Positions 6,414-60,094 of a DNA stretch of 64,000 nt are shown one piece after another. Source of the stretch: Desulfovibrionaceae bacterium (GTDB taxonomy: Bacteria > Desulfobacterota > Desulfovibrionia > Desulfovibrionales > Desulfovibrionaceae); assembly GCA_016932995.1 (NCBI GenBank), contig JAFGBU010000001.1, positions 1-64,000 of the forward strand. Reading direction: 5' to 3'. The translations under genes were made by a program, and so were the position numbers. The number at the start of each line of letters is the position of its first letter. Positions within the stretch are counted from its first letter, which is position 1. The notes beneath the pieces are model-generated. The model saw only the letters and a program-made list of their open reading frames with translations, did no database searches and was not told where the DNA came from.

Positions 6414-6427
6414 ATAAGGAGAGAGCC

Positions 6428-6871: not shown

Positions 6872-6874
6872 GCC

Positions 6875-10496: not shown

Positions 10497-10547
10497 GGCC
10501 TAGCACCGGGACGCGGATTCGTAAAGGAGCGGGCCGGGCGCGCGGCC

Positions 10548-11381
10548 CTAGAAGGTCAGGTCCGATATCTCCACGAGCAGGTCCGTGAACTCGTCCATGA
10601 CCCGCTCCAGGTCCACGACCTTGAACCTGAGCAGCTTCAGGGCCTCGGGCGAAAGCCGGGATATGTGATCGTCCCCGCCGTTGCCATACTCAAAGGCCCT
10701 GGTCAGGAAGTCCCCGACATTGACCACGGCCGGGTACAGGGGATAGTGCTGGGCCGCTTCCGGCCGGTGGTGGTTGCTCATGGCCTCGCGGATGTTGCCC
10801 GGCAGGTTCCAGTGCCTGGCCAGCCAGGCGTTGATGCGGTCGTGGCCGAAGCCCATGACCTTTTTCTCGGCATCGTAATAAGACAAGTCGTCGTGCTCCA
10901 CGCTGGCCGCCACGGCCTGGTGCAGCTCGGGCAGCTGCACGGCGCTGACCACCTTGCCCAGGTCGTGGAGCAGGCCGGCCACGGCGAACTCCTCGGGGTC
11001 GTCCAGCTTGAGCGTCCTGGCCACGATGCCGCAGGCCGTGGAGCAGCCCAGGCTGTGCTCCCAGAGGCCCTTCATGGCCGACTCCATCATGTCGAAGACC
11101 GAGGTCGAGATGATCACCCCCCTGATGACGTTGAAGCCCAAGAGCACCAGGGCGTGCTGGATGGAGCTGATCCGGCCCGGGAAGCCGTAGACCGGGGAGT
11201 TGACCATCTTCAAAACCTTGGCCGAGAGGACCTGGTCCCTGGAGATGAGCCGGGCGATCTCCTCGGTGGACGAGTCCGGGTCCTTGACCAGCTTGGTCAC
11301 CTCGTCAAGGACCCGGGGCAGGGTCGGCAGGTCCTTGATGGACAGTATCTGGCCCTTGACGCCGGTCTTCAGGTCTTCCAT
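10548..11381 (-). CDS. HDOD domain signalling protein
   Basis: A 277-residue protein consisting mostly of an HDOD domain, a relative of HD phosphohydrolases that usually lacks the full catalytic set. Visible features are the entry helix ILSIKDLPTLPRVLDEVTKL, the motif SRDQVLSAKVLKMVNSPVYG, ISSIQHALVLLGFNVIRGV and a GLLHDLGKVV segment that does keep an HD pair. HDOD proteins take part in nucleotide signalling, stress and cell-cycle regulation. It starts 4 bases after the small upstream protein and is followed by the GGDEF gene, suggesting one regulatory unit. Hydrolase activity is not established by the sequence. Confidence 0.86.
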   Translation of the reverse strand: MEDLKTGVKGQILSIKDLPTLPRVLDEVTKLVKDPDSSTEEIARLISRDQVLSAKVLKMVNSPVYGFPGRISSIQHALVLLGFNVIRGVIISTSVFDMMESAMKGLWEHSLGCSTACGIVARTLKLDDPEEFAVAGLLHDLGKVVSAVQLPELHQAVAASVEHDDLSYYDAEKKVMGFGHDRINAWLARHWNLPGNIREAMSNHHRPEAAQHYPLYPAVVNVGDFLTRAFEYGNGGDDHISRLSPEALKLLRFKVVDLERVMDEFTDLLVEISDLTF

Positions 11382-11385
11382 GGGC

Positions 11386-11742
11386 CTAGCGCTCCTTGGC
11401 CTGTTTTTCGGCCTCCTCGGCCTCCTGGGCCGCGGCCTTGATCTGGAAGTAGGAGCGCAGATGCCCCTTGACCTCCATCATCCACCCATCCCCGTCAAGG
11501 CCCCTGAACAGATGGTCGAGCCTCTCGACCCGCTCGGCGAACTTGGTGCCCCCGCCGACCCCGGCCAGGTCCACGGGGTTTCCCTGGACCACTATGCGCT
11601 CGACCTTCATGTTCTCCAGGCGCATGATCAGGCCGTCGCTCAACTCCATGCCCTCGGCCATGAGGGTCATGCCGCTGTCGCTTACAACGGGCTTGGCCAG
11701 CTTCATGCCCGGCCTGGCCAGCTTCAAGGGTATCTTCTGCAT
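11386..11742 (-). CDS. Small protein with HD-GYP-associated N-terminal-like domain
   Basis: A 118-residue protein. The start at 11742 is chosen because GGGAGAGGAC precedes it; an earlier in-frame start at 11844 would add a low-complexity Gly/Pro tail. The N-terminal half (MKLAKPVVSDSGMTL, AEGMELSDGLIMRLENM, VERIVVQG) resembles the short domain found in front of many HD-GYP and HDOD proteins. The C-terminal half has a helix with FAERVERLDHLF and a charged Glu/Lys/Ala end. It ends 4 bases before the HDOD start, so it is probably a partner or regulatory subunit of that protein. The function is otherwise unknown. Confidence 0.75.
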   Translation of the reverse strand: MQKIPLKLARPGMKLAKPVVSDSGMTLMAEGMELSDGLIMRLENMKVERIVVQGNPVDLAGVGGGTKFAERVERLDHLFRGLDGDGWMMEVKGHLRSYFQIKAAAQEAEEAEKQAKER

Positions 11743-11871
11743 GTCCTCTCCCAGGGCCCGGAATACGGGAACACGGCCCGGCGCGGCCGGGCCCGGACCG
11801 CCCGCCGGGGCGGGCCCATAATACATGTCCGCGCACCGCCGCACAAGGCCGGACGGACGCGCCGCGACCGC

Positions 11872-13023
11872 TCAGCCCAGGCTGTAGTACATGCCCGGCC
11901 ACTGGCGCACCAGCCCGCGCATCTCGAGCATGACCACGGTCCCGCTGACCTTGCGGGCCTCCCAGCCGAGGGACCGGCCGAGGCTGTCGATGTGCATTTT
12001 ATCCCGGCCGGCCAAAATCGCGAACAGCTCGGCCTCGGCCGGGCTCAGGTCCGCCGGGGCCTGGGGCGGGGTCCGGACCGCCGGGGCCTGGGGCGGGGCG
12101 CTCGGGGCCGCGGCCCGCAGCAAGGCCAGTTCGCGGCCCAGTTGCGGGGCGAGCGCCCTGAGCACGTCCTCGGCCGTCTCGACCAGGCAGGCGCCGTCCT
12201 TTATGAGCCGGTTGCAGCCGCCGGATTCGGGCCGGCCGGGCGGCCCGGGGAGGGCGAAGACCTCCCGGCCCTGGTCCCCGGCCAGGCGGGCGGTTATCAG
12301 GCTGCCGCTCCTCTCCGCGGCCTCGGCCACGAGCACGCCCAGGGACAGGCCGCTTATTATCCGGTTGCGAAAAGGGAAGTTTCCGGCCTCGGGCCTGATC
12401 CCGGGCCCGAACTCGGTGACCACCAGGCCCTTTTCCTCCATGTCCCTGCGCAGGTCCGCGTTGCCCGCGGGATAGTTCACGTCCAGGCCCGCGCCCAGGA
12501 CCCCTATGGACCGGCCGATCCCGGAGAGCCCGGCCAGGTGCGCCTGCCGGTCTATGCCGCAGGCCATGCCCGAGACAATGGTCAGGCCCGCGGCCGAGAG
12601 CTCCGCGCTTATCCGGGCCGCGGCCTCGAGGCCCTGGCCGGAGCAGTGCCTGGCCCCGACAACGGCCAGGCAGGGATTCAAGAGCAGGGAGAGGTCGCCG
12701 CAATAGTAGAGAAACGCGGGCGGGTCCGGGATGTGCCGCAGCCTGTCCGGATAGTCGGGATCGGACCAGGTCAGCACGGCCATGCCCTTGGCCCGGGCCG
12801 CGCGGTACTCCTGCTCGGCCGCGGGCCTCCAGGACTGGTCCTGAAAGGCCCTGGCCTGGCCCTTGTTGACCAGGCCGCGGCCCAGCCAGGACCCGGCCGC
12901 CTGCACGGCCTGGTACGCGCCGTCAAAGGCCTCGAGTACGGCCTTCCAGGTCTTGGGACCGATGCCCGGGGTGTGGCGGACGGCCAAACAGGCGAAAAAT
13001 TCCTTGCTCTGGTCCGGGGACAT
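11872..13023 (-). CDS. dprA: DNA-processing protein DprA
   Basis: DprA/Smf loads RecA on single-stranded DNA taken up during transformation and is widespread even in species not known to be competent. The 383-residue protein has an N-terminal helix-hairpin-helix-like stretch (TPGIGPKTWKAVLEAF), a Rossmann core with AVVGARHCSGQG, IVSGMACGIDRQAH and AERSGSLITARLAGDQGREV, and a C-terminal winged helix (residues ~320-383). A Pro/Ala-rich linker with a repeated APAVRTPPQAPA-like piece joins the last two. The ATG at 13023 has GGGAG at a good distance; a TTG at 13059 would add 12 residues. It lies downstream of the cpoB-like gene. Confidence 0.93.
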   Translation of the reverse strand: MSPDQSKEFFACLAVRHTPGIGPKTWKAVLEAFDGAYQAVQAAGSWLGRGLVNKGQARAFQDQSWRPAAEQEYRAARAKGMAVLTWSDPDYPDRLRHIPDPPAFLYYCGDLSLLLNPCLAVVGARHCSGQGLEAAARISAELSAAGLTIVSGMACGIDRQAHLAGLSGIGRSIGVLGAGLDVNYPAGNADLRRDMEEKGLVVTEFGPGIRPEAGNFPFRNRIISGLSLGVLVAEAAERSGSLITARLAGDQGREVFALPGPPGRPESGGCNRLIKDGACLVETAEDVLRALAPQLGRELALLRAAAPSAPPQAPAVRTPPQAPADLSPAEAELFAILAGRDKMHIDSLGRSLGWEARKVSGTVVMLEMRGLVRQWPGMYYSLG

Positions 13024-45848: not shown

Positions 45849-46541
45849 CTAGTTCCTGGCCTGGTAGCGGGCCAGGTGCCTTTCGAGCCGCCGGCTGAAG
45901 GAGGTCAGGACGTAGCAGACGATGAAGTAGAGCACGAGCATGGTCAGAAATATCTCCATGGGCGCGTTCATGGTCCTGTTGTTGACCTGGGTCGCGGCGC
46001 GGGTGAGCTCGTTGACCCCGATGATGTAGGCCAGGGAGGTGTCCTTGGTCAGGCTCACAAACTGGTTCACGAACGAGGGGATCATGTTCCGCAGGGACTG
46101 GGGCAGGATGACGAAGCACATGGCCTGGACATGGCTCAGGCCCGAGCCCCTGGCGGCCTCCATCTGGCCCTTGGGCAGGGCCAGGACCCCGGCCCGGACG
46201 ATCTCGGCCACGTACGCCCCGGTAAAGACCACAAAGGCGACGAGCGCGCTCTGGAACTCGGGCATGGTGTGCCCGAGGACCACCGGGGCCAGGAAGTAGA
46301 ACCAGAATATGCACATCAACAGGGGCACGCCCCTGATGATCTCGACGTAGACCAGGGCCGGATAGTGCAGCCACCAGCGCCCGGACAGGCGCATCAGGCC
46401 CGCGGCCAGGCCGAGCCAGAAGGCGAAGAATATGCCGAGCAGGGCCAGGATGATGCTCATGGCCAGGCCGCCCAGCGCCCCCTCGGGGAAGGCCCCCCAG
46501 AGGAAGTAATCCATGTTGTCCCAGACCACCTGCCAATGCAT
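45849..46541 (-). CDS. Polar amino-acid ABC transporter permease (second)
   Basis: A 230-residue inner-membrane permease of the HisM/GltK family. It has about five membrane helices, the EAA coupling motif in EAARGSGLSHVQAMCFVILP and the terminal SFSRRLERHL. The segment GVNELTRAATQVNNRTMNAP resembles glutamate/aspartate importers. It starts 10 bases after the first permease and works with the substrate-binding protein and ATPase encoded upstream. Confidence 0.9.
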   Translation of the reverse strand: MHWQVVWDNMDYFLWGAFPEGALGGLAMSIILALLGIFFAFWLGLAAGLMRLSGRWWLHYPALVYVEIIRGVPLLMCIFWFYFLAPVVLGHTMPEFQSALVAFVVFTGAYVAEIVRAGVLALPKGQMEAARGSGLSHVQAMCFVILPQSLRNMIPSFVNQFVSLTKDTSLAYIIGVNELTRAATQVNNRTMNAPMEIFLTMLVLYFIVCYVLTSFSRRLERHLARYQARN

Positions 46542-46551
46542 CCGAGGGCTC

Positions 46552-47253
46552 CTAGTACTTGACCTGCAGCATGAAGTGCTTGTTGTACATGGTGATGGCG
46601 AAGGAGACGATCAGCGAGATGCCCAGGTAGAGCAGCGTGGACACGGTGAAGGCCTCGAACCCGTGGAAGGTGTAGGACTCGACCTGCCTGGCCATGTAGG
46701 TCAGGTCGGCGACCCCGATGGTCATGACCAGGGACGAGTTCTTGATCAGGTTCAGGAACTGGGAGATGAGCGGGGGGATGATTATCCTGAAGGCCTGGGG
46801 CAGGATCACGTAGCGGTAGGCCTGGACAAAGGACAGGCCCACGGCCCTGGAGGCCTCGATCTGGTTCCTGGGTATGGAGAATATCCCGGCCCGTATCTCC
46901 TCGGCGATGAACGCCGAGGTGTACACGGTCAGTCCGATGACGCCCGAGGCGAACTCGTAGTCATGGGCGTAGAGCCACTTGTTGACCGCCTCGGGCAGGA
47001 TGACGTTGCACCCGAAGTACCAGAAAAAAAGCTGCACCAGCAGGGGCGTGTTGCGGAAGAACTCGGTGTAGGCCAGGCTCAGCCACTGCAGGGGCCTTAT
47101 CCTGGTCATCCTGAGCACGGCCACGACCGTGCCCATGAGCAGGGCGAGGACAATGGACACGGCCGAGATCTTCAAGGTGACCACAAGGCCCTTGACGATC
47201 CAGTCGGCGTACTCGCCCTTGAGCACCAACTGCCAATTGAACTGATAGTTCAA
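46552..47253 (-). CDS. Polar amino-acid ABC transporter permease (first)
   Basis: A 233-residue permease of the same family (GltJ/HisQ type), with ISAVSIVLALLMGTVVAVLR, the coupling motif EASRAVGLSFVQAYRYVILP and IGVADLTYMARQVESYTFHG. About five membrane helices are visible. It pairs with the following permease. It begins 98 bases after the binding-protein gene, with a strong stem-loop in between. The overall set resembles GltIJKL, so glutamate or aspartate is the likeliest cargo, but arginine or glutamine cannot be excluded. Confidence 0.9.
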   Translation of the reverse strand: MNYQFNWQLVLKGEYADWIVKGLVVTLKISAVSIVLALLMGTVVAVLRMTRIRPLQWLSLAYTEFFRNTPLLVQLFFWYFGCNVILPEAVNKWLYAHDYEFASGVIGLTVYTSAFIAEEIRAGIFSIPRNQIEASRAVGLSFVQAYRYVILPQAFRIIIPPLISQFLNLIKNSSLVMTIGVADLTYMARQVESYTFHGFEAFTVSTLLYLGISLIVSFAITMYNKHFMLQVKY

Positions 47254-47273
47254 GATGATCTTCCGACGTGATT

Positions 47274-47303
47274 TTGGGGCGCGCCCTTTCGGGCGCGCCC
47301 CAA
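47274..47303 (-). promoter_or_regulatory. Intra-operon stem-loop after the binding-protein gene
   Basis: TTGGGGCGCGCCC (47274-47286) and its exact complement (47291-47303) form a 13-bp stem with a four-base TTTC loop. No T run follows on either strand, so it is not a classic terminator. Such hairpins after binding-protein genes protect the upstream mRNA and reduce downstream permease expression. Confidence 0.7.
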
Positions 47304-47351
47304 TCTATGCAAAGCGCCCGGTTGAAAACACCCCGGCGCCTTCAGAACGAA

Positions 47352-48233
47352 CTAGGGCCAGATCTCCATCTGCCAGGTCAGGGGCAGATAGTACTTGGTG
47401 TCCGGACCGAACCACTTGTCGTAGATCTTCTTGTACTCGCCGGAGGTCCACATCTCCATGAGCGAGGCGTTGACGAAGTCGCGGAAGTTGGACTCGTTCT
47501 CGGGCAGGCCCAGGCCGTAGGGCTCCGCGGCGATGAAGTCGCCGACGATCGCCCACTGCTCGGGGTTCTCGTCGGAATTCTTGAGACCCAACAGGATGGT
47601 CGAGTCCGTGGTCACGGCCGAGACCTTGCCCTGCTTGAGGGCCAAGAAGGCCTCGGGATAGCCCTCGAACGAGAGCACCGTGCAGTCGGGCTGGACGGCC
47701 TTGATGTTCTTCTCCGAGGTCGAGCCCTTGGCCGTGCCGACCTTTTTGCCGGCCAGGTCAGCCGCGCCCTTGATGCCGCCGTCCTTCTTAACCAGCACCT
47801 TCTGGCCGTCCATGAAGTAGGTGATGGAGAAGTCGATGACGTCGTCGCGGGATATCTTGTGGGTCATGGTCGCGGCCGCGAGGTCGATGGAGCCCTGGGC
47901 GACCATGGGGATGCGCGTGGCCGAGGTCACGGGTTTGAGGTCCAGCTTCACGCCGAGCTTGTCGGCCAGGTACTGGCAGATGTCCACGTCAAAGCCGATG
48001 ATCTGATTGGACTGGGGATCGACATACCCGAAGGGCACCACGGCGTCCTTGACGCCGGCCACCAGGACGCCGCGCTCCTTGACGACCTCGAGCAGGTCCT
48101 TCTTGGCCTCGGGCGCGACGGCTCTCTGCGCCGTATCGCCCGTGGCGGCCTTGTCCGGGGCCTGGGAACAGCCAAAGGCCGCGGCCAGGCCCAACACCAG
48201 CATCAAAACGACAACCCTGCGCAATCCTAGCAT
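47352..48233 (-). CDS. Amino-acid ABC transporter substrate-binding lipoprotein
   Basis: A 293-residue family 3 solute-binding protein. The signal MLGLRRVVVLMLVLGLAAAF is followed by GC, a lipobox. The mature protein has LEVVKERGVLVAGVKDAVVP, GFDVDICQYLADKLGVKLDL, GSIDLAAATMTHKISRDDVI, FSITYFMDGQKVLVKKDG, KKVGTAKGSTSEKNI and FVNASLMEMWTSGEYKKIYD. It captures a polar amino acid in the periplasm for the two permeases and the ATPase. It lies 50 bases after the ATPase gene. Confidence 0.92.
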   Translation of the reverse strand: MLGLRRVVVLMLVLGLAAAFGCSQAPDKAATGDTAQRAVAPEAKKDLLEVVKERGVLVAGVKDAVVPFGYVDPQSNQIIGFDVDICQYLADKLGVKLDLKPVTSATRIPMVAQGSIDLAAATMTHKISRDDVIDFSITYFMDGQKVLVKKDGGIKGAADLAGKKVGTAKGSTSEKNIKAVQPDCTVLSFEGYPEAFLALKQGKVSAVTTDSTILLGLKNSDENPEQWAIVGDFIAAEPYGLGLPENESNFRDFVNASLMEMWTSGEYKKIYDKWFGPDTKYYLPLTWQMEIWP

Positions 48234-48283
48234 GTTCTACCTCCTGAGATTTGTTATGCAGCCGACCGCACCCACAGCGCCCG

Positions 48284-49012
48284 TCAAAGAATTTCCTTGA
48301 GAAACGCCTTGGTGCGTTCATGCCTGGGGTTCTTGAAAAACTCGTCCGGAGGGGCCTCCTCGACCACCTCGCCGCCGTCCATGAACACCACCCGGTCCGA
48401 GACCTCCCGGGCAAAGCCCATCTCGTGGGTCACGCAGAGCATGGTCATGCCCTCGCGGGCCAGGTCCTTCATGACGTTTAAGACCTCGTTTATCATCTCC
48501 GGGTCAAGGGCCGAGGTCGGCTCGTCAAAGAGCATTACCTTGGGCCTCACGGCCAGGGCCCGGGCTATGGCCACGCGCTGCTGCTGGCCGCCGGAGAGCT
48601 CCACCGGGTACTTGTGGGCCTGGTCGGTTATCCCGACCCGCTCGAGCAGGCCCAGGGCGACCTCCTCGGCCTCGTTCTTGGGCATGCCCTTGACCTTGAT
48701 CGGGGCCAGGGTGACGTTCTTCAAGACCGTCAGGTGCGGATAGAGGTTGAACTGCTGGAACACGATCCCGATCTCGGCCCGCAGGGAGTTGACGTTCACG
48801 TCCCTGTCGTGGATGTCCTTGCCGTCAAAGCGGATGGTCCCGGACTGGTACTCCTCGAGCCGGTTGATGCACCGGATGAAGGTGCTCTTGCCCGAACCGC
48901 TGGGGCCGCAGATGACCAGGACCTCACCCTTGTTGACCTCCTCGGTGATGCCCTTGAGCACGTGGAACTCGCCGTACCACTTCTGCAGGCCGTTGACCTC
49001 TATCATCGCCAT
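48284..49012 (-). CDS. Amino-acid ABC transporter ATP-binding protein
   Basis: A 242-residue ABC ATPase of the GltL/GlnQ/HisP type. Walker A is [16 protein letters not shown], the Q-loop is [16 protein letters not shown], the signature is [17 protein letters not shown], Walker B is [16 protein letters not shown], and the H-loop is [12 protein letters not shown]. The ATG at 49012 is chosen because GGAG lies 8 bases upstream; a TTG at 49015 and an ATG at 49006 are alternatives. It is the first gene of the transporter operon, divergent from the RND efflux genes. Confidence 0.95.
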
Positions 49013-49264: not shown

Positions 49265-50464
49265 ATGACCAAGCGGACCGCCGGACTGATTCGGACACGT
49301 CTTCTCCTGGCAGCGGGCGCACTGGCCCTGGTCCTGTCCGCGGCCTGCTCCAAGCCCGACGACAAGCAGCACACCGCCCCGCCGGTCCCGGTGAGCACGG
49401 TCAAGGCCGTGGCCAAGGACGCGCCGGTGACCCTCCACGCCGTGGGCACGGTCAAGGCCTCGGACTCGGTGACCATCAGGTCCAGGGTCAACGGCCACAT
49501 AGCCAAGATACACTTCCTGGACGGCGAGGAGGTGGCCGCCGGGGACCTGCTGTTCTCCATCGACCCGACCTCGTCGCTGAGGCTCGACCAGATGGGCGCC
49601 CTGGCCGACCTGTCCAAGGCCAGGGCCCAGGCCGAGCAGGCGGCCAAGGAGATGGCCCGGTACAAGAGCCTCTACGCCCAGGGCGTGGTCAGCAAGGACG
49701 AGTACGAACAAAAGGCCACGGCCGCGGCCACGGCCCGGGAGGCGGTCCACTCGGACCTGGCCACTGCGGCCAGCGCCGGCCGCATGGCCGGTTTCGCCAA
49801 GATCAGCGCGCCCATCGGCGGCAGGGCCGGCAGCGCCCTGATCGACGAGGGCAACCTGGTCAACGCGGCCCAGGACGACCTGGTGAGCATCAAGAAGATC
49901 GTCCCCTCGGACGTGGAGTTCTCCATACCCGAAAAGGACCTTTTGGACGTCAAAAGGCACTTTGTCACCGGCGTGCTCGAGGTCTTTGCCCAGCCGCCCG
50001 GCGGGGAGGAGCGCAGGGAGGGCGGCCTGCTGACCTTCATAGACAACTGGGTGGACCCGTCAACAGGCATGATCAGGCTCAAGGCCCGCTTCCCCAACCA
50101 GTCCCAGAGGCTCTGGCCGGGCCAGTTCGTGAGCGTGACCATGGTCCTCACGAACATAAAGGACGCGGTGCAGGTCCCCATGACCGCGGTCCAGGACGGG
50201 CCTAACGGAAAGTTCGTCTACCTGGTCAAGGAAAACAAGGCCGTCCCCCAGGCCGTGAGCACCGGGTTCGTGACCGACGAGGGGCTCATGGTCATTGAAA
50301 AGGGCCTGCAAAAGGACGACGAGGTCGTGGTCGAGGGCCAGATCAGGCTCTATCCCGGGGCCAGGGTCCTGATCCCCGAACAGCAGGCCAAGCCCGGCGA
50401 GGCCAAGCCCGGCGAAGCCAACCCCCAGGGCAAGGCGGACAAATCCGGAGGCGCGGCCTCATGA
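49265..50464 (+). CDS. RND efflux periplasmic adaptor (membrane fusion lipoprotein)
   Basis: A 399-residue adaptor. A lipoprotein signal (RTRLLLAAGALALVLSAA then Cys) anchors it to the membrane. It has a lipoyl-like half (VKASDSVTIRSRVNGHIAKI, FLDGEEVAAGDLLFSIDP), an alpha-hairpin (LSKARAQAEQAAKEMARY), the return strand (FAKISAPIGGRAGSALIDEG) and beta-barrel and membrane-proximal parts. The C-terminus has a KPGEAKPGEA repeat. It links the RND pump to an outer-membrane channel; no tolC-like gene is adjacent. Its TGA stop overlaps the ATG of the pump gene (ATGA), so they are coupled. Confidence 0.92.
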   Translation: MTKRTAGLIRTRLLLAAGALALVLSAACSKPDDKQHTAPPVPVSTVKAVAKDAPVTLHAVGTVKASDSVTIRSRVNGHIAKIHFLDGEEVAAGDLLFSIDPTSSLRLDQMGALADLSKARAQAEQAAKEMARYKSLYAQGVVSKDEYEQKATAAATAREAVHSDLATAASAGRMAGFAKISAPIGGRAGSALIDEGNLVNAAQDDLVSIKKIVPSDVEFSIPEKDLLDVKRHFVTGVLEVFAQPPGGEERREGGLLTFIDNWVDPSTGMIRLKARFPNQSQRLWPGQFVSVTMVLTNIKDAVQVPMTAVQDGPNGKFVYLVKENKAVPQAVSTGFVTDEGLMVIEKGLQKDDEVVVEGQIRLYPGARVLIPEQQAKPGEAKPGEANPQGKADKSGGAAS

Positions 50465-53400
50465 ACGTGACCGAGCTGTTCATCAAACGGCCGGTCATGA
50501 CCTGTCTGCTCACCCTGGGCATGGTCTTTTTCGGCATCGTGGCCTACCTGAGCCTTCCGGTCAGCTACCTGCCGGCCGTGGAGTTCCCGACCATCCAGGT
50601 GACCGCCCAGCTGCCCGGGGCCAACGCCAAGACCATGGCCTCCAGCGTGGCCTCGCCCCTGGAGCGGGAGTTCTCGGCCATCGCCGGGCTCAACTCCATG
50701 AGCTCGGTCAACTCCGAGGGCCAGAGCCAAATCACCCTCCAGTTCGACCTGGACCGCAACATCGACGACGCCTCGATGGACGTGCAGGCGGCCATGACCA
50801 AGGCCAGCGGCTCCCTGCCCGACGAGATGACCGACCCGCCCTCGTTTTCCAAGGTCAACCCGGCGGACTCGCCCGTGTTCTACATGGCCCTGACCTCGCC
50901 GACCCTGCCCCTGTACACGGTCAACGACTACGCCAAGACCTTCCTGACCCAGACCATATCCATGATCCCGGGCGTGGCCCAGGTGCTCATCTACGGCGAG
51001 AAGAAGTACGCCGTGCGCATCCGGCTCGACCCGCGCGCCCTGGCCGCGCGCGGCCTGGGCATCGACGAGGTGCGCCAGGCCGTGTCCGCGGCCAACGTCA
51101 ACCTGCCCCTGGGCGGTCTGGAGGGGCCGGACATAAACCTGACCATCGACGCCCCGGGCCAGCTCTACCGGGCCGAGGAGTACAAGCCGGTGATCGTGGC
51201 CTGGAAGAACGGCCAGCCGGTGCGCCTCAAGGACCTGGGCCTGGTGGAGGACGGGGTCGAGTCCGAGCGCTTCAGCGCCTGGAACAACGGCCGCAAGCAG
51301 ATACTGGTGGCGATCAAGCGCCAGCCGGGTTCCAACACCATCGAGGTGGTCGACGCGATCAAGAAAAGGCTCCCGGCCATCAAGGCCCAGATGCCGGCCG
51401 CGGTGAACCTGGAGATCATCTACGACATGAGCCGGTTCATCAAGGACTCGGTGGACGACGTGAAGTTCACCCTGTCCCTGGCCGTGGCCCTGGTCATCCT
51501 GGTGGTCTTCGTGTTCCTGCGCAGCCTGGCCGGCACGTTCATCGCCTCGGTGGCCATACCGTTTTCCATCATCGCCACCTTCGCGGCCATGTTCGGACTG
51601 GGCTACACCCTGGACAACCTATCGCTCATGGCCCTGACCCTGTCCGTTGGCTTCGTGGTCGACGACGCCATAGTCATGCTCGAAAACATCGTCCGGCACC
51701 TGGAGATGGGCAAGACGCCCATGCGCGCCGCCCTGGACGGGGCCAGGGAGATCGGATTCACGATCATCTCCATGACCCTGTCCCTGGCCGTGGTCTTCGT
51801 GCCCATCGTGTTCATGGCCGGCATCGTGGGCCGAGTACTGCACGAGTTCGCCATGACCATCGCCCTGGCCATCCTCATCTCCGGCGCGGTCTCCCTGAGC
51901 CTGTCGCCCATGCTCTGCTCGCGCACCCTCAAGACCGGAAGCCGCATGGCCGAATCGGACCGCCTGTTCAACTGGCTGCTCAACCTGTACAAGAGGTCCC
52001 TGCACCTGGCCATCGACCACCGGGGCAAGACCATGATCGCGGCCGGCGCGGTCCTGGGGCTCACGGTCTGGGCCTTTATGGCCGTGCCCAAGGGCTTTCT
52101 GCCGACCAACGACATCGACTACTTCTTCGGCTTCACCCAGGCCCGGCAGGGCATCTCCTACCAGGCCATGCTCGACCGCCAGATCAGGCTGGAGCCGATC
52201 TTTCTGGCCGACCCGGACGTGATCATGGAGAACCAGATCATCGGCGTGCCCCTCCAGAACCAGGGCATGACCTTTGTCATGCTCAAGCCCCAGTCCGAGC
52301 GCAAGCGCGGGGCCGACGAGGTCATCCGGGACTTCATGCCCCGGGCCAACTCCATCCCGGGCCTGATGTGCTTCCTGGTCAACCCGCCCATGATCCAGAT
52401 CGGCGGCAAGCAGGCCAAGGGCGACTACGTGTTCACCCTCCAGAGCCCGGACACCGGGGTCCTCTACTCCGAGGCCAAGGAGTTCCTGGCCGCCCTGGCC
52501 AAGCTGCCCCAGCTGAGCGGCGTCAACAGCGACCTGCAGATGGCCAACCCCCAGGTGGAGCTCAACGTGGACCGGGACAAGGCCGCCAGCCTCGGCATAT
52601 CCATGAACGACGTGGAAAACGCCCTGTACACGGCCTACGGCGAACGCAAGATATCGACCATCTACGCCCAGAACGACGAGTACAAGGTCATCATGGAGCT
52701 TCTGCCCGAGTTCCAGAGGGACGCGCGGGCCCTGTCCATGCTCTACGTGCGCTCGGACTCGGGCAAGCTGGTGCGCCTGGACGCCGTGGCCTCGTTCAGC
52801 CTCGGCCTGGGCCCGGTCACGGTCAACCACACCGGGCAGCTGCCCTCGGTGACCGCCTCGTTCAACGCCGGCCCGGGCGTGGCCCTGGGCGAGGTCACCA
52901 AGGCCGTGTCCGACCTGGCGGCCAGGACCCTGCCCGAGAGCGTGAGCACCCAGTTCGAGGGCACCGCGGGCGCGTTCCAGGAGTCCATGAACAGCCTGTA
53001 CTTCCTGCTCGCGCTGGCCATCGTGGTCATCTACATCCTACTCGGCTGCCTGTACGAGAGCTTCATCCATCCCCTGACCATCCTCTCGGGCCTGCCCTCC
53101 GCGGCCCTGGGCGGGCTTTTGACCCTGATGGCCTTCGGCTACGAGCTCAACCTCTACGGATACGTGGGCGTGATCATGCTCATCGGCATAGTCAAGAAGA
53201 ACTCGATCATGGTCGTGGACTTCGCCATCGCCGCGGAAAAGGAGGGCAAGACCCCGGGCGAGGCCGCGTTCCAGGGCTCCATGGTCCGCTTCCGGCCGAT
53301 CATGATGACCACCCTGGCCGCGATCATGGGCGCAATGCCCATCGCCCTGGGCTTCGGGGCCGGGGCCGAGGCCAGGCGGCCCCTGGGCCTGGTGGTCGTC

Positions 53401-53526
53401 GGCGGCCTGGTCCTCTCCCAGCTGGTCACCCTGTACCTGACCCCGGTCTTCTACACCTACATGGACCAGCTCCAGAACTGGCTGAGGCGCAAATCGTCCG
53501 CGGCCGGGCACGCGGAGGAGGCCTAG
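50461..53526 (+). CDS. RND multidrug-type efflux pump (HAE1 family)
   Basis: A 1021-residue proton-driven pump of the AcrB/MdtBC class. It starts MNVTELFIKRPVMTCLLTLG as usual. Twelve helices are expected in two halves, with large periplasmic loops. The proton-relay Asp pair is present in SVGFVVDDAIVMLENIVRHL. The second half has YVGVIMLIGIVKKNSIMVVD and FRPIMMTTLAAIMGAMPIAL. It exports hydrophobic or amphiphilic compounds together with the preceding adaptor; the substrate is unknown. The CusA/CzcA heavy-metal signature is absent. Confidence 0.95.
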   Translation: MNVTELFIKRPVMTCLLTLGMVFFGIVAYLSLPVSYLPAVEFPTIQVTAQLPGANAKTMASSVASPLEREFSAIAGLNSMSSVNSEGQSQITLQFDLDRNIDDASMDVQAAMTKASGSLPDEMTDPPSFSKVNPADSPVFYMALTSPTLPLYTVNDYAKTFLTQTISMIPGVAQVLIYGEKKYAVRIRLDPRALAARGLGIDEVRQAVSAANVNLPLGGLEGPDINLTIDAPGQLYRAEEYKPVIVAWKNGQPVRLKDLGLVEDGVESERFSAWNNGRKQILVAIKRQPGSNTIEVVDAIKKRLPAIKAQMPAAVNLEIIYDMSRFIKDSVDDVKFTLSLAVALVILVVFVFLRSLAGTFIASVAIPFSIIATFAAMFGLGYTLDNLSLMALTLSVGFVVDDAIVMLENIVRHLEMGKTPMRAALDGAREIGFTIISMTLSLAVVFVPIVFMAGIVGRVLHEFAMTIALAILISGAVSLSLSPMLCSRTLKTGSRMAESDRLFNWLLNLYKRSLHLAIDHRGKTMIAAGAVLGLTVWAFMAVPKGFLPTNDIDYFFGFTQARQGISYQAMLDRQIRLEPIFLADPDVIMENQIIGVPLQNQGMTFVMLKPQSERKRGADEVIRDFMPRANSIPGLMCFLVNPPMIQIGGKQAKGDYVFTLQSPDTGVLYSEAKEFLAALAKLPQLSGVNSDLQMANPQVELNVDRDKAASLGISMNDVENALYTAYGERKISTIYAQNDEYKVIMELLPEFQRDARALSMLYVRSDSGKLVRLDAVASFSLGLGPVTVNHTGQLPSVTASFNAGPGVALGEVTKAVSDLAARTLPESVSTQFEGTAGAFQESMNSLYFLLALAIVVIYILLGCLYESFIHPLTILSGLPSAALGGLLTLMAFGYELNLYGYVGVIMLIGIVKKNSIMVVDFAIAAEKEGKTPGEAAFQGSMVRFRPIMMTTLAAIMGAMPIALGFGAGAEARRPLGLVVVGGLVLSQLVTLYLTPVFYTYMDQLQNWLRRKSSAAGHAEEA

Positions 53527-53531
53527 AACCC

Positions 53532-55298
53532 ATGCCCCGAAAAGGCCAGACGGTCCATCCGTTTGTCCGGGAAATGGCCCGGGAGGCCGAGGCCGGCAGG
53601 ATCAGCCGCAGGGATTTTTTGCGCTACGCGGGCCTGTTGGGCGTATCGGCCGCCGCGGCCGGGGCCCTGTTCGGCCCGGCACAGGTCCTGGCCGGGACCG
53701 AGGCCGGCCTGGTCCACAAGGTCGAGCCCCTAAGCGATGAATCGCCCTTCGAGATCAAGGACCTGCTCATCAAAAAGGCCGAGGACGCCTGCGCCAGGGC
53801 CCAAAAGGCCGGCGAGTCCCGGCGGTTCATCAACGCCGGCCGGGGCAACCCGGACTTTTTGAACACCACGGCGCGCAAGGCCCTGGCCCTGCTGACCCTG
53901 TTCGCGGCCCTGGCCGCCGAAGAACACGGCGAGACCCGGGACCTGGGCCTGAGGATTTCCCAAAAAGGGCTGTCAAACAGGCTGGACGCCTTTCTCAGGG
54001 GGAATGCGGACGCGCCGGGCGCGGCCTTTTTGAAGTCGGCCATGGACCACGCGCGCATGAACCTGGGCATGGACCCCGACCAGGCGGCCTTCGAGATCAT
54101 CGACGCCGCGCAGGGCGACTTCTATCCCGACCCGCCGCGCATCCTGCCGGTGACCGAGAAGATCGTCAGCGAATACCTGAACAAGGTCCTCTTCGCCGGA
54201 AGCCCGCCCAAGGGCAGGTTCCGCCTCTTCGCCACCGAGGGGGCCACCGCGGCCATGGTCTACATCTTCTACTCGCTTAAGATCAACAAGCTCCTTGCGC
54301 CCGGCGACTTCGTGGCCATACTCACGCCCATCTTCACGCCCTACCTGGAGATGCCGGTGCTCAAGGAGTTCGGGCTGGTCAACGTCAATGTCCAGGGCGA
54401 CGAGAGGTCCGGCTGGCAGATCCCGGACAGCGAGCTGACCAAGCTAAGGGACACGAGGATCAAGGCCCTGTTTTTGGTCAACCCGACCAACCCCACTTCA
54501 GTGTCCCTGGACCAAGACAGCGTGTCCAAGATCGCGCGGACCATCCGCGACCACAACCCCGATTGCCTGGTCGTCTCGGACACGGTCTACTCCGGCTTTG
54601 TCGAATCCTTTTTCAGCCTGTGCTCCGAGTTGCCGAAAAACGTCCTTGGGGTATACTCATTCTCCAAGTATTTCGGGGTCACGGGCTGGCGCCTGGGCGT
54701 GGTCATGGTCCACGAGGACTGCGTGGCGGACAGGCTCATCTCCAGGCTCCCGGCCAGGGACCAGGCGGGCCTGGACTTCCGCTACCGCCTGGTCTCGACC
54801 ACGCCGTGGGAGATCAAGTTCATCGACCGCCTGGAGATCGACAGCCGCGACGTGGCCCTGGCCCACACCGGCGGGCTGTCCGGGCCCCAGCAGGCGGCCA
54901 TGTGCCTGTTCGCCCTGTTCGAGATCCTGGACCCGGAAAACGAATACAAAAAATCCGTCACCGGGCTGCTCAAAAGACGCTGGGAGGCCCTGTACGGGGC
55001 CCTCGGCCTGACCCCGCCCGAGGGCCCGCAAAGGACCCGCTACTACGCCCTGCTCGACCTGCTCCAACTGGCCGAGGCCGGACACGGCAAGGACTTCGCC
55101 CAGGCCCTGGCCAAGCAGGACCCCTTGAATTTCCTGTTCAGGCTGGCCGAGGAACACTCCATGGTCTGCCTGCCCGGCCAGGGCTTCGCCGGGCCGAGAT
55201 GGTCCATCCGGGTCTGTCTGGCCAACGTGGCGGAAAAGGACTGCGCGGCCATCGGCAAGGCCGTTTCGGCGCTGCTCGACGACTACGCCCGAGGCTGA
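53532..55298 (+). CDS. Aspartate aminotransferase/aspartate 4-decarboxylase-like PLP enzyme with Tat signal
   Basis: A 588-residue fold-type I PLP enzyme. It resembles bifunctional L-aspartate beta-decarboxylase/transaminase (AsdA), which makes alanine and CO2 from aspartate. Typical pieces are RRFINAGRGNPDFLNTTARK, FATEGATAAMVYIFYSLKIN, FLVNPTNPTSVSLD and the PLP Lys in YSFSKYFGVTGWRLGVVMV. Known AsdA proteins are about 530-545 residues. Here the extra N-terminus carries a twin-arginine signal: ISRRDFLRYAGLLGVSAAAA, then GALFGPAQVLAG. That predicts export after folding with cofactor. It begins 5 bases after the RND pump stop and is followed by a strong terminator. Export and substrate are unproven. 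Confidence 0.85.
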   Translation: MPRKGQTVHPFVREMAREAEAGRISRRDFLRYAGLLGVSAAAAGALFGPAQVLAGTEAGLVHKVEPLSDESPFEIKDLLIKKAEDACARAQKAGESRRFINAGRGNPDFLNTTARKALALLTLFAALAAEEHGETRDLGLRISQKGLSNRLDAFLRGNADAPGAAFLKSAMDHARMNLGMDPDQAAFEIIDAAQGDFYPDPPRILPVTEKIVSEYLNKVLFAGSPPKGRFRLFATEGATAAMVYIFYSLKINKLLAPGDFVAILTPIFTPYLEMPVLKEFGLVNVNVQGDERSGWQIPDSELTKLRDTRIKALFLVNPTNPTSVSLDQDSVSKIARTIRDHNPDCLVVSDTVYSGFVESFFSLCSELPKNVLGVYSFSKYFGVTGWRLGVVMVHEDCVADRLISRLPARDQAGLDFRYRLVSTTPWEIKFIDRLEIDSRDVALAHTGGLSGPQQAAMCLFALFEILDPENEYKKSVTGLLKRRWEALYGALGLTPPEGPQRTRYYALLDLLQLAEAGHGKDFAQALAKQDPLNFLFRLAEEHSMVCLPGQGFAGPRWSIRVCLANVAEKDCAAIGKAVSALLDDYARG

Positions 55299-55367: not shown

Positions 55368-56600
55368 TCACTTGGCGTTGAGTCTGTGCTCCTGCGGAAA
55401 GACCGGCAGATACCGGTAGGACAGGGAGAGCACCAGGGCGCCGTAGGCCAGGATCATGAAGCTCGGGGCCCATTCCGCCCAGTTGGGCACGTAGGTCTGC
55501 CAGTTGTCAAAGGGCAGGACCGGCAGGGCGATGGTCTGGACCGTGAACACGTAGCGGTTGATGACTATGCCGCAGCAGTCCAGGATGGCCGCCAGATACA
55601 GGAGCGAGGGGCGGTTCCGGATGGCCGGGGTGATGAGCATGATCGCCGGGATGACCCCGCACAAGAACAGCTCGGACCACATCAGCCACTTGCCGTAGAT
55701 GTTGCCGTAGAACATCTCGTCAAAGGTCAGGCCCACGCTGGGCAGATACCCGGTGGCCCAGGCCCAGGTGTCCAGGAGCTTGAAGAACATGTACAGGCAG
55801 AGCATGGAGCCGGCGATCTTGCCCATGAGCGACTTGACCTTGTACTCGACCAGCTTCTTGCCCGAGACCTTCTCCAGCAGGGTGCAGATGAGCACCGCGA
55901 AGACCGGGCCCGAGGCCACGGCCGAGAGCACGAACAGGAAGAAGGTCCAGGGCCAGATGAAGAAGCCCTCGCGGAAGGCGTAGGGCCGGCCGATGAGCAC
56001 GCCGTACATGCCGCCCAGGGAGCCCTGGTGGAAGGTGGACAGATAGGTGCCCACGCCGACGAACAGGGCCATGTTCACATGCATGTTGTGGGCCAGGTGC
56101 CGCAGGAAGGGTATCCTGTTCAACTGCTTCTGCTCGAAGATGAGCGGCAGGTACTCGATGATCAGCACCATGCAGTAGCAGGTGATGCAAAAGATAACTT
56201 CCGTGAGCATGGAATGCACGTTGGGGTGCCAGTACCCGAACCAGGCCCGGCCCGGCTGGCCGATGTCCAGGGTGAGCACGAGCATGGCGCCCGAGTAGCA
56301 AATGAACCCGATGATGACCGTCAGGTTGACGATGTTCTTGAGCTGATCGATCTTCAGGATGTATTTGAGGAAGCCGGTGAAAAAGGCCCCGGCTCCCAGG
56401 GCGATGACCGCGAGGTCAAAGGTGATCCAGAGACCGAATCCGAAGTAGTTGTCCAGACCGGTGACGCCTATCCCGTTGTAGAGGATGATGAACGCGGCGT
56501 ATATGCCCCAGAGGAGGAATACGCCGACGGCGCCCAGCCAGAGCATGAACTTGCCCAGCGAGCACCTCTGCACTCCCTCGGGGAAGAGTTTGCTGTCCAT
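55368..56600 (-). CDS. qrcD: Qrc menaquinone reductase, NrfD-like membrane subunit QrcD
   Basis: A 410-residue integral membrane protein of the NrfD/PsrC family, with about ten hydrophobic segments (LWLGAVGVFLLWGIYAAFII, FDLAVIALGAGAFFTGFLKY, MLTEVIFCITCYCMVLIIEY, FFLFVLSAVASGPVFAVLIC and others). It holds the menaquinone-reducing site of the Qrc complex, which takes electrons from periplasmic cytochrome c3 and reduces menaquinone during growth on hydrogen or formate. It is the last gene of the operon and starts 12 bases after qrcC. It ends 19 bases from the shared terminator. Confidence 0.95.
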   Translation of the reverse strand: MDSKLFPEGVQRCSLGKFMLWLGAVGVFLLWGIYAAFIILYNGIGVTGLDNYFGFGLWITFDLAVIALGAGAFFTGFLKYILKIDQLKNIVNLTVIIGFICYSGAMLVLTLDIGQPGRAWFGYWHPNVHSMLTEVIFCITCYCMVLIIEYLPLIFEQKQLNRIPFLRHLAHNMHVNMALFVGVGTYLSTFHQGSLGGMYGVLIGRPYAFREGFFIWPWTFFLFVLSAVASGPVFAVLICTLLEKVSGKKLVEYKVKSLMGKIAGSMLCLYMFFKLLDTWAWATGYLPSVGLTFDEMFYGNIYGKWLMWSELFLCGVIPAIMLITPAIRNRPSLLYLAAILDCCGIVINRYVFTVQTIALPVLPFDNWQTYVPNWAEWAPSFMILAYGALVLSLSYRYLPVFPQEHRLNAK

Positions 56601-56612
56601 TACCGCCCTCCC

Positions 56613-57443
56613 TTAATGCTTCTTGGCGTGGGGTTCTTCGTTGGCCAGGTAGTTGTCGCCCTGCTTGCGCACCCAGTCGCGCTTGGTCAGGTAGTAGACC
56701 TGGGGGTCGAGGCCGAGCTTCTCCAGGAGCCTGAACGCGTACTTGCCGTGGGCCAACTGATGGACCTTGTGCTCGGGATTGTTCAGGTCCCCGAAGGTGA
56801 TCGCCCCGGTGGGACAGACCTCGACGCAGGCCGGAGTGTAGTAGCCCTCGGGAAGCTCGTTGGGATCGATGCCTTCCTGGCGGGCGCGCTCCTTGGCCTT
56901 GAGGAACCGGGTGTGGCAGAAGTTGCACTTCTCGACCACGCCCCTGGGCCGCACCGAGGTGCGCGGGCTGAGGGCCTTGTCCATGCCCTTGGGCCAAATG
57001 GGGTCGAACCAGTTGAAGTACCGGGCGTGGTATGGACAGGCGGCCATGCAGTACCGGCAGCCTATGCACCGCGGGTAGATCTGGCTGACGATCCCGCCCT
57101 CCTCGTTCTTGTCCGTGGCCACCACCGGGCAGACCGGCACGCAGGCCGGATTGCCGCACTGCATGCACGGCCTGGGCAGGAACGCGACCTCGTGATCCGG
57201 GTAGTCCTTGCGGTTGGAGAGCTCGTATACCATCAGCCAGGTCAGGGTGCGCATCTTGTTGCTGGGGTCGTCCCGCTCAAAGGTCATGGACGGGAGGTAG
57301 TTCTCCTTGTCCTGCCTGACCATGGGGGAGATGTTGTTCTCCACCTGGCAGGCGACCATGCATGCGCCGCAGCCCGTGCACTTGTCCACGTCTACGACCA
57401 TCCCCCATCTGACTTTGAACTCTTTCGCGTGTCCGTGTGACAT
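56613..57443 (-). CDS. qrcC: Qrc menaquinone reductase, iron-sulfur subunit QrcC
   Basis: A 276-residue periplasmic ferredoxin-like subunit. Four cysteine groups are visible: CTGCGACMVAC, CMQCGNPACVPVCP, CIGCRYCMAACPYHARYFN and a split set CNFCHTRF with later CVEVCPTGA. These would hold three or four iron-sulfur clusters linking the cytochrome side to the quinone site. There is no signal peptide of its own, so export with the Tat-bearing QrcB is expected. It starts 11 bases after qrcB. Confidence 0.95.
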   Translation of the reverse strand: MSHGHAKEFKVRWGMVVDVDKCTGCGACMVACQVENNISPMVRQDKENYLPSMTFERDDPSNKMRTLTWLMVYELSNRKDYPDHEVAFLPRPCMQCGNPACVPVCPVVATDKNEEGGIVSQIYPRCIGCRYCMAACPYHARYFNWFDPIWPKGMDKALSPRTSVRPRGVVEKCNFCHTRFLKAKERARQEGIDPNELPEGYYTPACVEVCPTGAITFGDLNNPEHKVHQLAHGKYAFRLLEKLGLDPQVYYLTKRDWVRKQGDNYLANEEPHAKKH

Positions 57444-57454
57444 GACGGTTCCCC

Positions 57455-59530
57455 CTACATTTTGGCGACGTTCACCGTGGAGCCGGCCCAGGTGGTCAGG
57501 CCCGACCCGGGCTCGATGCGCGCGGTGAGGATCTTGTTGACGTTATCGCCCTTGCCCTTGGAGAACTCGTCCCAGGCGGTGTGCCCGAACCCAAGGGGAA
57601 CCGCCACGACTCCGGGCATGACGCCCTCGAAGACATGGACCAGGGCCTTGCATTCGCCTCCCGCGCCGGTCAGCTTGACCTTGGAGCCCTCGGAAACGCC
57701 GAGCTGCTTGGCGGTCGCCTTGCAGACCTGGACGCACATGACACTGCCCTTGAGCTCCGTGTCCCTGATGGTCGTCGGGTTGTGGGGCGGGGTGGCGACG
57801 TGTCCGGAGCCGACGTTGAGCCGCATCACCGGGGCCACGGCCACCGGGGCCGTGGCCTTGGCCGGGAACGCCGCCTGGCCCAGGGTCGCGGCGCCCAGGG
57901 AGACGCCGCCCGAGACCTGGCCCGAACGGGTGAAGGCCGCGCCCGCGGCCAACTCGTCCCAGTTGCCGCCGATGGCCTCGACCTTGGCCTTGAGCACGTC
58001 CTCGAAGGTCTCGAAGCCGAGGTCCTGGCCGAGCTTGGCGGCCAGGCCCAGGATGACGTCCGGGGTGGACCTGACGTCCAGCTGCGGTTCGGCCACAGGC
58101 GCGCCCAGGCAGTAGGTGAACCGGCCGAGGCCGTAGGGGGTCTGGAGGTCGTCGAAACGCTCGTAGGGATGCGGCGCGGGCAGGATCAGGTCCGCTCCGG
58201 CCGCGGTCTCGTCCAGGTAGGTGCTGAAGCTGACCACGAATCCGGCCTTGGCCAGGCCCGCGGACATGGTCTCTGCCTGGGGCAGGGCGTAGACCGGGTT
58301 GGCCTCGTAGACCATGGCCACCTCGGGGGCCTTGGCCTTGCCCGCGGCCACGGCCGCCAGGTACCCGGCCAGATCGTTGCCGAGCGCCTGGGCCGGGCCC
58401 ATGGCCCCGGACACGACCTTGGGGGCCTGGGGCAGGGCGACCATGCCGCCCTTGGCGTTGAACCTGCCCAAAAGCACGTTCAGGGCCGCTCCGGCCGCGA
58501 ATCCGGCCGCGCCGCCGCCCAGGGCGCCGGGCACGACCACGGGCCGCTGGGCCTCCATGAGCGTCTTGGCCACGTCGGCCAGGACAGCGGCCTTGACCCC
58601 GGTCATCTTCTCCACCTGGCCCGGGGTGAACTTGGCCAGGACCAGGGACTTGAACTCGGCGAAGTCCGCCGCGGAGGCGGAGGCGCCGTTCTTGATCAGG
58701 ATTGCGGCCAGGCCCAGGGCAAAGGCGGCCGCGCCGCCCGGGGCCACCGGGACCCACTTGTCGCAGACCGCGGCGGTGCGGGTCTGGACCGGCCCGGCGT
58801 AGACATATTTGGCCGCGGCCTCGGCGCCCAGCGGATGCGTGGCGTCAAAGGCCTTCTGGTTGCGCACCGTGGGGCCCCAGGAATCCAGGGCGTCGGCGCC
58901 GATGAACAGCACGCAGTCGGAATCCTCGATGTCGAACCCGACCTGGCCCGAGCCGTTCATGGTCTCCCGCCACGCCCTGCCGGCCGCCTGGGCCTCGCCG
59001 GGCATGTAGTAGAAACCGCTCTGGCCGAGCTTGGCCATGAACGCGGAAAAGACCTCGTTGGCGGTCCCGGAGTCGTCCCCGGAAATGAACAGGGCCTTTC
59101 CGTCGCCGCCGGCCGCGGACTTGAGCTTGGCGGCCAAGACCTCCAGGGCCTCGTCCCAGGACACGGGATCGTACTTGCCCTCGCCGGTCTTCTTCATCGG
59201 GCCCTTGACCCTGGCCGGGCTGTTCATGAGCTGCGCGCCCGAGGCGCAGAGCGGGCAAATGCCGCCGCCGCTCAGGGGGTTGTCCTTGTTGCCCTTGGTC
59301 CCGTAGGGCGCGCCGCCCACGGTCTCGACCTTGACCGCGCAGCCCGAGGCGCAGAGCTTGCTCACCGTGGGCACGGCGCTGTCCGCGCCCTTCTTGAGCC
59401 TGGGTATCCAGCCCCAGTTCTGCGTCCAGATGGACACGTCATCGGTCAATTTCCAAATCACCGGCGTGAAAAGCGACCCAACGGCGCCTCCAACGGCGAA
59501 AGTGATGAATCTTCTGCGATTCAAACCCAT
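57455..59530 (-). CDS. qrcB: Qrc menaquinone reductase, molybdopterin-oxidoreductase-like subunit QrcB
   Basis: A 691-residue large subunit of the molybdopterin oxidoreductase superfamily. In Desulfovibrio vulgaris the equivalent protein lacks molybdenum and is structural. A Tat signal opens it (GLNRRRFITFAVGGAVGSLF). Cysteines C60, C64, C92 and C95 (LCASGC and ICPLC) replace the standard cluster motif. SWDEALEVLAAKLKSA and a C-terminal cofactor-domain remnant (GSGHVATPPHNPTTIRDTEL) follow. Alanine and glycine are very frequent. It starts 15 bases after qrcA. Whether a pterin is bound cannot be told from sequence. Confidence 0.94.
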   Translation of the reverse strand: MGLNRRRFITFAVGGAVGSLFTPVIWKLTDDVSIWTQNWGWIPRLKKGADSAVPTVSKLCASGCAVKVETVGGAPYGTKGNKDNPLSGGGICPLCASGAQLMNSPARVKGPMKKTGEGKYDPVSWDEALEVLAAKLKSAAGGDGKALFISGDDSGTANEVFSAFMAKLGQSGFYYMPGEAQAAGRAWRETMNGSGQVGFDIEDSDCVLFIGADALDSWGPTVRNQKAFDATHPLGAEAAAKYVYAGPVQTRTAAVCDKWVPVAPGGAAAFALGLAAILIKNGASASAADFAEFKSLVLAKFTPGQVEKMTGVKAAVLADVAKTLMEAQRPVVVPGALGGGAAGFAAGAALNVLLGRFNAKGGMVALPQAPKVVSGAMGPAQALGNDLAGYLAAVAAGKAKAPEVAMVYEANPVYALPQAETMSAGLAKAGFVVSFSTYLDETAAGADLILPAPHPYERFDDLQTPYGLGRFTYCLGAPVAEPQLDVRSTPDVILGLAAKLGQDLGFETFEDVLKAKVEAIGGNWDELAAGAAFTRSGQVSGGVSLGAATLGQAAFPAKATAPVAVAPVMRLNVGSGHVATPPHNPTTIRDTELKGSVMCVQVCKATAKQLGVSEGSKVKLTGAGGECKALVHVFEGVMPGVVAVPLGFGHTAWDEFSKGKGDNVNKILTARIEPGSGLTTWAGSTVNVAKM

Positions 59531-59545
59531 CTCAGCACCCCTTTT

Positions 59546-60094
59546 TTACTTATGGCAAACGTAACAGGCGTTGCTGACGCCGCCCTCGGCATGACAACGC
59601 TCGCACTGCCACATCTTCATGGTCTGCTTGCTGTAGCCGGTGATCACGTTCCGGTAGTGCGGGGGCGGCGTGTCGGAATCGCCCAGGTTGGGATGGCAGT
59701 CAGTGCACTCGAATCCGTCGTGCGCCTTGTGCGAGAAATAGACGTTGTCCGGCTGGTACTGATAGATGAGCCAAGGCACCGCCCGGCCCTTCTCCAAAAA
59801 TTCCTTGACGTACTTGGCCTCCGCAGGGTCCTGGCCCATCAGATCGGTATGGCACTCGGCGCACTGCTCATTGCTCGGCAGGCCGGCGTAGGAGCCGTCC
59901 TCCCTGAAGAAATGGCAGCCAGAGCATTCCATGCCCTGCTCCTTGTGCACGGTGTGGCTGAAACGGATCGGCTGGTCCTTCTGGCAATAGATAACCTGCG
60001 GAAAGATTATCCATAAAAAGACTGCGGACAGCACGAAACCGATCAGGAATGGAATTGCCCCGCCACTCCCTTTCGACGCTCTTTTTTCCTCCAT
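59546..60094 (-). CDS. qrcA: Qrc menaquinone reductase, multiheme cytochrome QrcA
   Basis: A 182-residue membrane-anchored cytochrome c. One N-terminal helix (IPFLIGFVLSAVFLWIIFP) is followed by five CXXCH sites: C57SGCH61, C78AECH82, C130TDCH134, C164ERCH168 and C177YVCH181. An extra Cys37 (IYCQKDQPIRFSH) lies before them. The D. vulgaris protein is described as hexaheme, so a sixth heme would need a non-standard site. It receives electrons from cytochrome c3. The ATG at 60094 (MEEKRASKG) fits the family N-terminus; a TTG at 60109 is the alternative. It is the first gene of the operon. The 171-base gap upstream holds a perfect TTGACA on the minus strand (60184-60179) without a convincing -10. 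Confidence 0.93.
   Translation of the reverse strand: MEEKRASKGSGGAIPFLIGFVLSAVFLWIIFPQVIYCQKDQPIRFSHTVHKEQGMECSGCHFFREDGSYAGLPSNEQCAECHTDLMGQDPAEAKYVKEFLEKGRAVPWLIYQYQPDNVYFSHKAHDGFECTDCHPNLGDSDTPPPHYRNVITGYSKQTMKMWQCERCHAEGGVSNACYVCHK

Follow-up and report, generated by a model that had tools for sequence, protein, structure and literature searches.

We found that a gene in the analyzed window (a 64,000-nucleotide stretch of contig JAFGBU010000001.1 from a Desulfovibrionaceae bacterium) encodes a protein of the aspartate beta-decarboxylase (AsdA) family with an N-terminal Tat signal. As judged by sequence comparison, it is confirmed that this predicted signal is neither a chance resemblance nor the product of a mis-called start. 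Within the AsdA family, the protein belongs to a distinct branch whose members are mostly exported by prediction and come from several bacterial phyla; unlike the known members, which are cytoplasmic, it is probably active beyond the inner membrane. We consider it likely that Tat exports the decarboxylase after PLP has been bound in the cytoplasm, and that the enzyme then forms L-alanine and CO2 from L-aspartate in the periplasm.

Gene, locus and catalytic domain

The open reading frame lies at the coordinates given in the sequence-only reading (Table 1). Its ATG is backed by a good ribosome-binding site and by the MxxxxHPF beginning that is conserved in relatives. The genome that contains the window spans 2.48 Mb in 49 contigs, is 99.5% complete and has no other AsdA. 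The RND efflux pump gene located directly upstream is possibly co-transcribed with it, and this pump gene is not kept beside relatives of the window AsdA in the neighborhoods that were examined. Downstream, a QrcABCD-like operon (quinone reductase complex), with NrfD-like, Fe-S, molybdopterin-type and cytochrome c members, converges on the AsdA gene (55368–60034, reverse strand). Its molybdopterin-type protein also starts with an RR motif (MGLNRRRFITF).

Table 1. Positions of the AsdA-family gene, its parts and neighboring genes in the window
Feature	Position	Strand	Basis or remark
Polar-amino-acid-type ABC transporter	45849–49012	-	typed by its binding protein
RND efflux pump gene	50461–53526	+	stop 5 bp upstream of the CDS at 53532; context only
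Shine-Dalgarno-like GGAGGAGG	53514–53521	+	sequence; ten bases 5' of ATG 53532
CDS, Tat-signal AsdA-family protein, 588 aa	53532–55298	+	ATG 53532, stop ends at 55298
Tat signal peptide, residues 1–54	53532–53693	+	predicted cleavage after VLA (residue 54)
Twin-arginine motif SRRDFLR, residues 25–31	53604–53624	+	R26, R27, F29 invariant in 13 relatives
Uncharged stretch after the RR motif, 25 residues (32–56)	53625–53699	+	sequence
AsdA-family catalytic domain, residues 66–586	53727–55289	+	profile matches, solved relatives, AlphaFold model
K76 (K17 of 3fdd)	53757–53759	+	homology
R104 (R37 of 3fdd), in NAGRGNP	53841–53843	+	homology
K379 (K315 of 3fdd), putative PLP Schiff-base lysine	54666–54668	+	homology
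R560 (R497 of 3fdd), putative alpha-carboxylate arginine	55209–55211	+	homology

The earlier assignment of the product as an AsdA-type PLP enzyme holds, as both the full-length family matches and the kept catalytic residues bear it out. Model NF006755 matches residues 66–586 with 646 bits (cut-off 321) and TIGR03801 matches residues 71–586 with 577 bits (cut-off 435). The best solved relatives, 2zy2–2zy5 and 3fdd, are all L-aspartate beta-decarboxylases, and the AlphaFold model (mean pLDDT 76) finds its best PDB match in 2zy4 (TM 0.85 by target length, E 3.8e-38). Eleven positions of 3fdd (K17, R37, Y134, Y207, N256, D286, Y289, K315, R323, R375 and R497) were compared; their roles are presumed on the basis of what is known of AsdA and, more generally, of fold-type I PLP enzymes. 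The window protein has the same residue at each of them, and so do all 21 Tat forms wherever the sequence reaches. Other positions differ between the two subfamilies described below (D287T, N380A, A383G and A44N in the comparison with 3fdd); we refer to them as second-shell, a label given without measured distances. 2zy5 carries a mutation at R487, a position that varies even among the canonical AsdA members. Taken by its homology, the window protein would be an AsdA-family aspartate beta-decarboxylase with predicted activity on aspartate. Because it falls outside the branch of the crystallized AsdA and carries the second-shell changes, its substrate or reaction may differ.

The Tat signal

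The N-terminus consists of MPRKGQTVHPFVREMAREAEAGRI-SRRDFLR-YAGLLGVSAAAAGALFGPAQVLAGT, with the layout SRRDFLR, 25 uncharged residues and VLA-G. It passes a TATFIND-like rule that we wrote ourselves, whereas shuffling this N-terminus 20,000 times gave only 72 sequences that pass. No other gene among the 54 called in the window passes it, in a gene set where some starts, including that of the QrcB-like gene, are truncated. Conservation among relatives gives stronger evidence than this rule. R26, R27 and F29 are invariant in an alignment of 13 related genes. In six pairs of relatives, dN/dS amounts to 0.06–0.24 over the N-terminal extension vs. 0.06–0.19 over the core; since these values are low and close to those of the core, the extension is translated and under constraint at the protein level. 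The hydrophobic stretch is followed by small residues at -3/-1 in the window protein and in most relatives (VLA, AQA, AVA-like). We detected TatC in the window genome (236 bits), and indeed in all 15 genomes checked (the window genome and 14 others). The proposal of a real Tat signal is thereby substantiated by the invariant residues, the TATFIND-like rule, the dN/dS values and the presence of TatC, and from these features we infer that the window protein is exported and cleaved.

Distribution and phylogeny

AsdA is encoded by 30 of the 247 Desulfovibrionaceae genomes, in one copy each, and 13 of these 30, the window genome included, have the extension with the RR motif. The sampled members of the family with AsdA possess either the cytoplasmic or the exported (Tat) form, never both. 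Beyond the family, a contig scan and wider genome searches revealed Tat forms in Desulfogranum, Desulfocapsa, other Desulfobulbia, Dethiosulfatarculus and two Planctomycetota (L044 and L045, Rhodopirellula solitaria); L040, L044 and L045 were assigned to Tat partly by eye. Sec-like or anchor-like N-termini were found in L046 (Elusimicrobia), L064, L065, L081, L128 and L129, where L046 is ambiguous, as it was counted as Sec-like though it also passes the Tat rule.

In a maximum-likelihood tree of 78 sequences, the family divides in two with 100/100 support. The canonical side comprises 39 sequences, the crystallized enzyme included, none of which has a signal. The second side pools 21 Tat forms together with 6 Sec-like forms with a hydrophobic N-terminus and 12 members without a signal, the latter mostly from Chlamydiota and Dependentiae. 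All but one of the Tat forms (20 of 21) make up a single clade (100/99 support). The 100/100 split lies between the window protein and the crystallized AsdA, and we therefore treat the former as part of a distinct subfamily within AsdA. The tree is unrooted and thus gives no direction of change.

Within this second subfamily, the signal-less loci of Chlamydiota and Dependentiae are L047–L049, L051, L053–L055 and L057. Two AsdA relatives with Sec-like signals (L128, 7244–8971, in genome G388, and L129 in genome G352) keep the PLP lysine and have lost several catalytic residues (R37Q, K17G, Y289E and R323H, with NAGRGNP changed to NAGQETP); they are possibly repurposed exported proteins.

AspT and gene context

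Canonical cytoplasmic AsdA depends on AspT, which brings aspartate in and takes alanine out. AspT scored above the cut-off in 16 of the 247 Desulfovibrionaceae genomes. Of these 16, 15 have canonical AsdA (a form present in 17 genomes), and in 14 of the 15 AspT lies within ~350 bp of AsdA; the sixteenth is a 74%-complete genome with no AsdA detected. None of the 13 Tat-form Desulfovibrionaceae genomes has AspT above the cut-off (15/17 vs. 0/13; Fisher p = 1.8e-6, uncorrected for shared ancestry). This contrast is partly uninformative, because genomes without AsdA lack AspT as well (it is missing from 216 of the 217 Desulfovibrionaceae genomes with no detected AsdA). AspT accompanies the canonical form and not the Tat form; these counts do not mean that the Tat form excludes AspT, and Rhodopirellula encodes AspT elsewhere in its genome, though its sole AsdA is the Tat form.

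When the flanking ORFs were all clustered, no partner common to the Tat clade emerged. Local synteny is shared in 4–5 genomes of one genus only, where aspA is located ~3 kb away, with typA between. In Rhodopirellula solitaria, the end of the Tat-AsdA gene overlaps by four bases (L045, 9812 vs. 9815) with the gene of a type II asparaginase, which scores 417 bits (cut-off 314) and bears a clear signal peptide. Among the Tat forms this neighbor occurs only in Rhodopirellula and was rejected as a general partner; the window genome yielded no type II asparaginase match. In turn, in three canonical genomes (G040:C33, G087:C1 and G096:C128) a signal-bearing asparaginase-family protein adjoins cytoplasmic AsdA and AspT, a layout that suggests a periplasmic Asn-to-Asp step feeding Asp:Ala exchange. 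As a signal-bearing asparaginase is found near both forms, both architectures can apparently use aspartate from the periplasmic side. Of the candidate roles raised in the sequence-only reading (an effect on periplasmic pH, amino-acid scavenging or cell-wall precursors), scavenging, here of aspartate and asparagine, receives some support from the asparaginase neighbor in Rhodopirellula.

A secreted C45/phospholipase-B-like hydrolase gene adjoins Tat-AsdA in L040 (desulfobacterial, 6309–7769) and L044 (planctomycete, 10292–11680), and the two hydrolases are 65% identical across two phyla. It was rejected as a general partner because it is absent in the 18 other genomes tested. As for the nearby ABC transporter, considered possibly of Glu/Asp type in the sequence-only reading, its binding protein marks it as a polar-amino-acid type, and all Glu/Asp-specific models scored below the cut-off. 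We rejected a link between this transporter and AsdA, since the context is not conserved and the relatives examined have no transporter of this kind beside them.

Proposed mechanism and alternative explanations

The AsdA-family protein would fold and bind PLP in the cytoplasm. For a folded cofactor-containing protein, Tat rather than Sec is the expected route, and PLP loading would precede export. The folded, PLP-loaded enzyme would then cross the membrane by Tat and be processed. The crystallized AsdA forms dodecamers, and a cargo of that size would be large for Tat; export in a smaller unit is therefore assumed. In the periplasm, the mature enzyme would convert L-aspartate to L-alanine and CO2. 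AspT would not be needed, because aspartate and alanine would both be in the periplasm, and no proton motive force is expected, because the reaction takes up a periplasmic proton. The likely use would be the conversion of extracellular aspartate, or of asparagine given a secreted asparaginase, to alanine for uptake, with scavenging as the simplest role.

That the exported PLP enzyme has a different main reaction, acting as a transaminase, a cysteine-sulfinate desulfinase (which releases sulfite) or another beta-lyase, seems to us rather unlikely. Such a reaction would be in line with the separate subfamily and its subfamily-wide second-shell changes, and AsdA is bifunctional by family definition (NF006755); desulfination of cysteine sulfinate by AsdA is known from older biochemistry. 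It would also agree with the locus L127 of genome G272 (7318–11875), where a Sec-signal AsdA precedes an SDH_alpha-like gene (cysteine desulfidase or serine dehydratase type) and then a Ser/Thr-transporter relative. Yet, every catalytic residue checked is unchanged, and the only gene in a tight operon with Tat-AsdA encodes a secreted asparaginase, an enzyme that produces aspartate; these same residues would, in turn, be retained if AsdA-type catalysis acted on other acidic amino acids.

The remaining two explanations concern the N-terminus. A Tat-targeted protein that keeps its signal uncleaved and stays anchored in the membrane, facing the periplasm with the same aspartate beta-decarboxylase chemistry, would resemble L065, whose hydrophobic N-terminal stretch has no obvious cleavage site. 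We regard this as quite improbable for the window protein, in view of the small -3/-1 residues that it shares with most relatives. A true start further downstream, which would leave an ordinary cytoplasmic AsdA and which the sequence-only reading itself had named as the case against it, could in principle use the TTG codons at residues 30 and 36. We give it hardly any credence and rejected it: it conflicts with the conservation of the RR motif and with purifying selection acting on the extension, the stretch that separates signal and catalytic domain contains no start codon, and the annotated ATG has its good ribosome-binding site.

Decarboxylation of amino acids usually takes place in the cytoplasm and is coupled to an energy-conserving antiporter. 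If Tat-exported AsdA indeed decarboxylates aspartate in the periplasm, the same chemistry would run uncoupled from transport, at the expense of periplasmic protons. We are evenly divided on the broader proposal that an old, multi-phylum subfamily of exported beta-decarboxylases (mostly Tat, some Sec-like) exists in which extracytoplasmic Asp-to-Ala conversion replaces the antiporter-coupled arrangement. An exported form raises the questions of the compartment in which PLP is loaded, of how Tat would pass an enzyme that is normally a dodecamer, and of why each of the sampled Desulfovibrionaceae genomes with AsdA has the cytoplasmic form, mostly with AspT, or the exported one, but not both. Current AsdA models give both subfamilies one name, which masks the difference in location. 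We found no description of a Tat-dependent or periplasmic AsdA in the literature searched, which covered few subscription journals and is weak evidence of absence.

Comparison with known systems

The solved AsdA enzymes (TIGR03801/NF006755; 2zy2–2zy5 and 3fdd of Pseudomonas dacunhae) share full-length homology, fold and catalytic residues with the window protein, at 42% identity in the structural alignment. The window protein differs from them in its additional Tat signal, its position in the 100/100-separate subfamily and the changes D287T/N380A/A383G/A44N. The physiology of the AsdA-AspT module is that of Lactobacillus, Tetragenococcus and relatives. The same decarboxylation is expected here, and an asparaginase is a possible upstream partner in both systems; in contrast to the module, Tat-form Desulfovibrionaceae genomes are without AspT, and their enzyme is predicted to reside outside the membrane, with no gain of proton motive force expected.

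PvdN of Pseudomonas is a Tat-exported folded PLP enzyme that acts in pyoverdine maturation. The likeness lies in the passage of a folded PLP enzyme by the Tat route, which is predicted here, whereas the PLP family and the role are different. Type II periplasmic asparaginase (TIGR00520), the operon partner of Tat-AsdA in Rhodopirellula, likewise represents extracytoplasmic amino-acid catabolism. It belongs to an unrelated family and supplies aspartate, which Tat-AsdA is predicted to consume.
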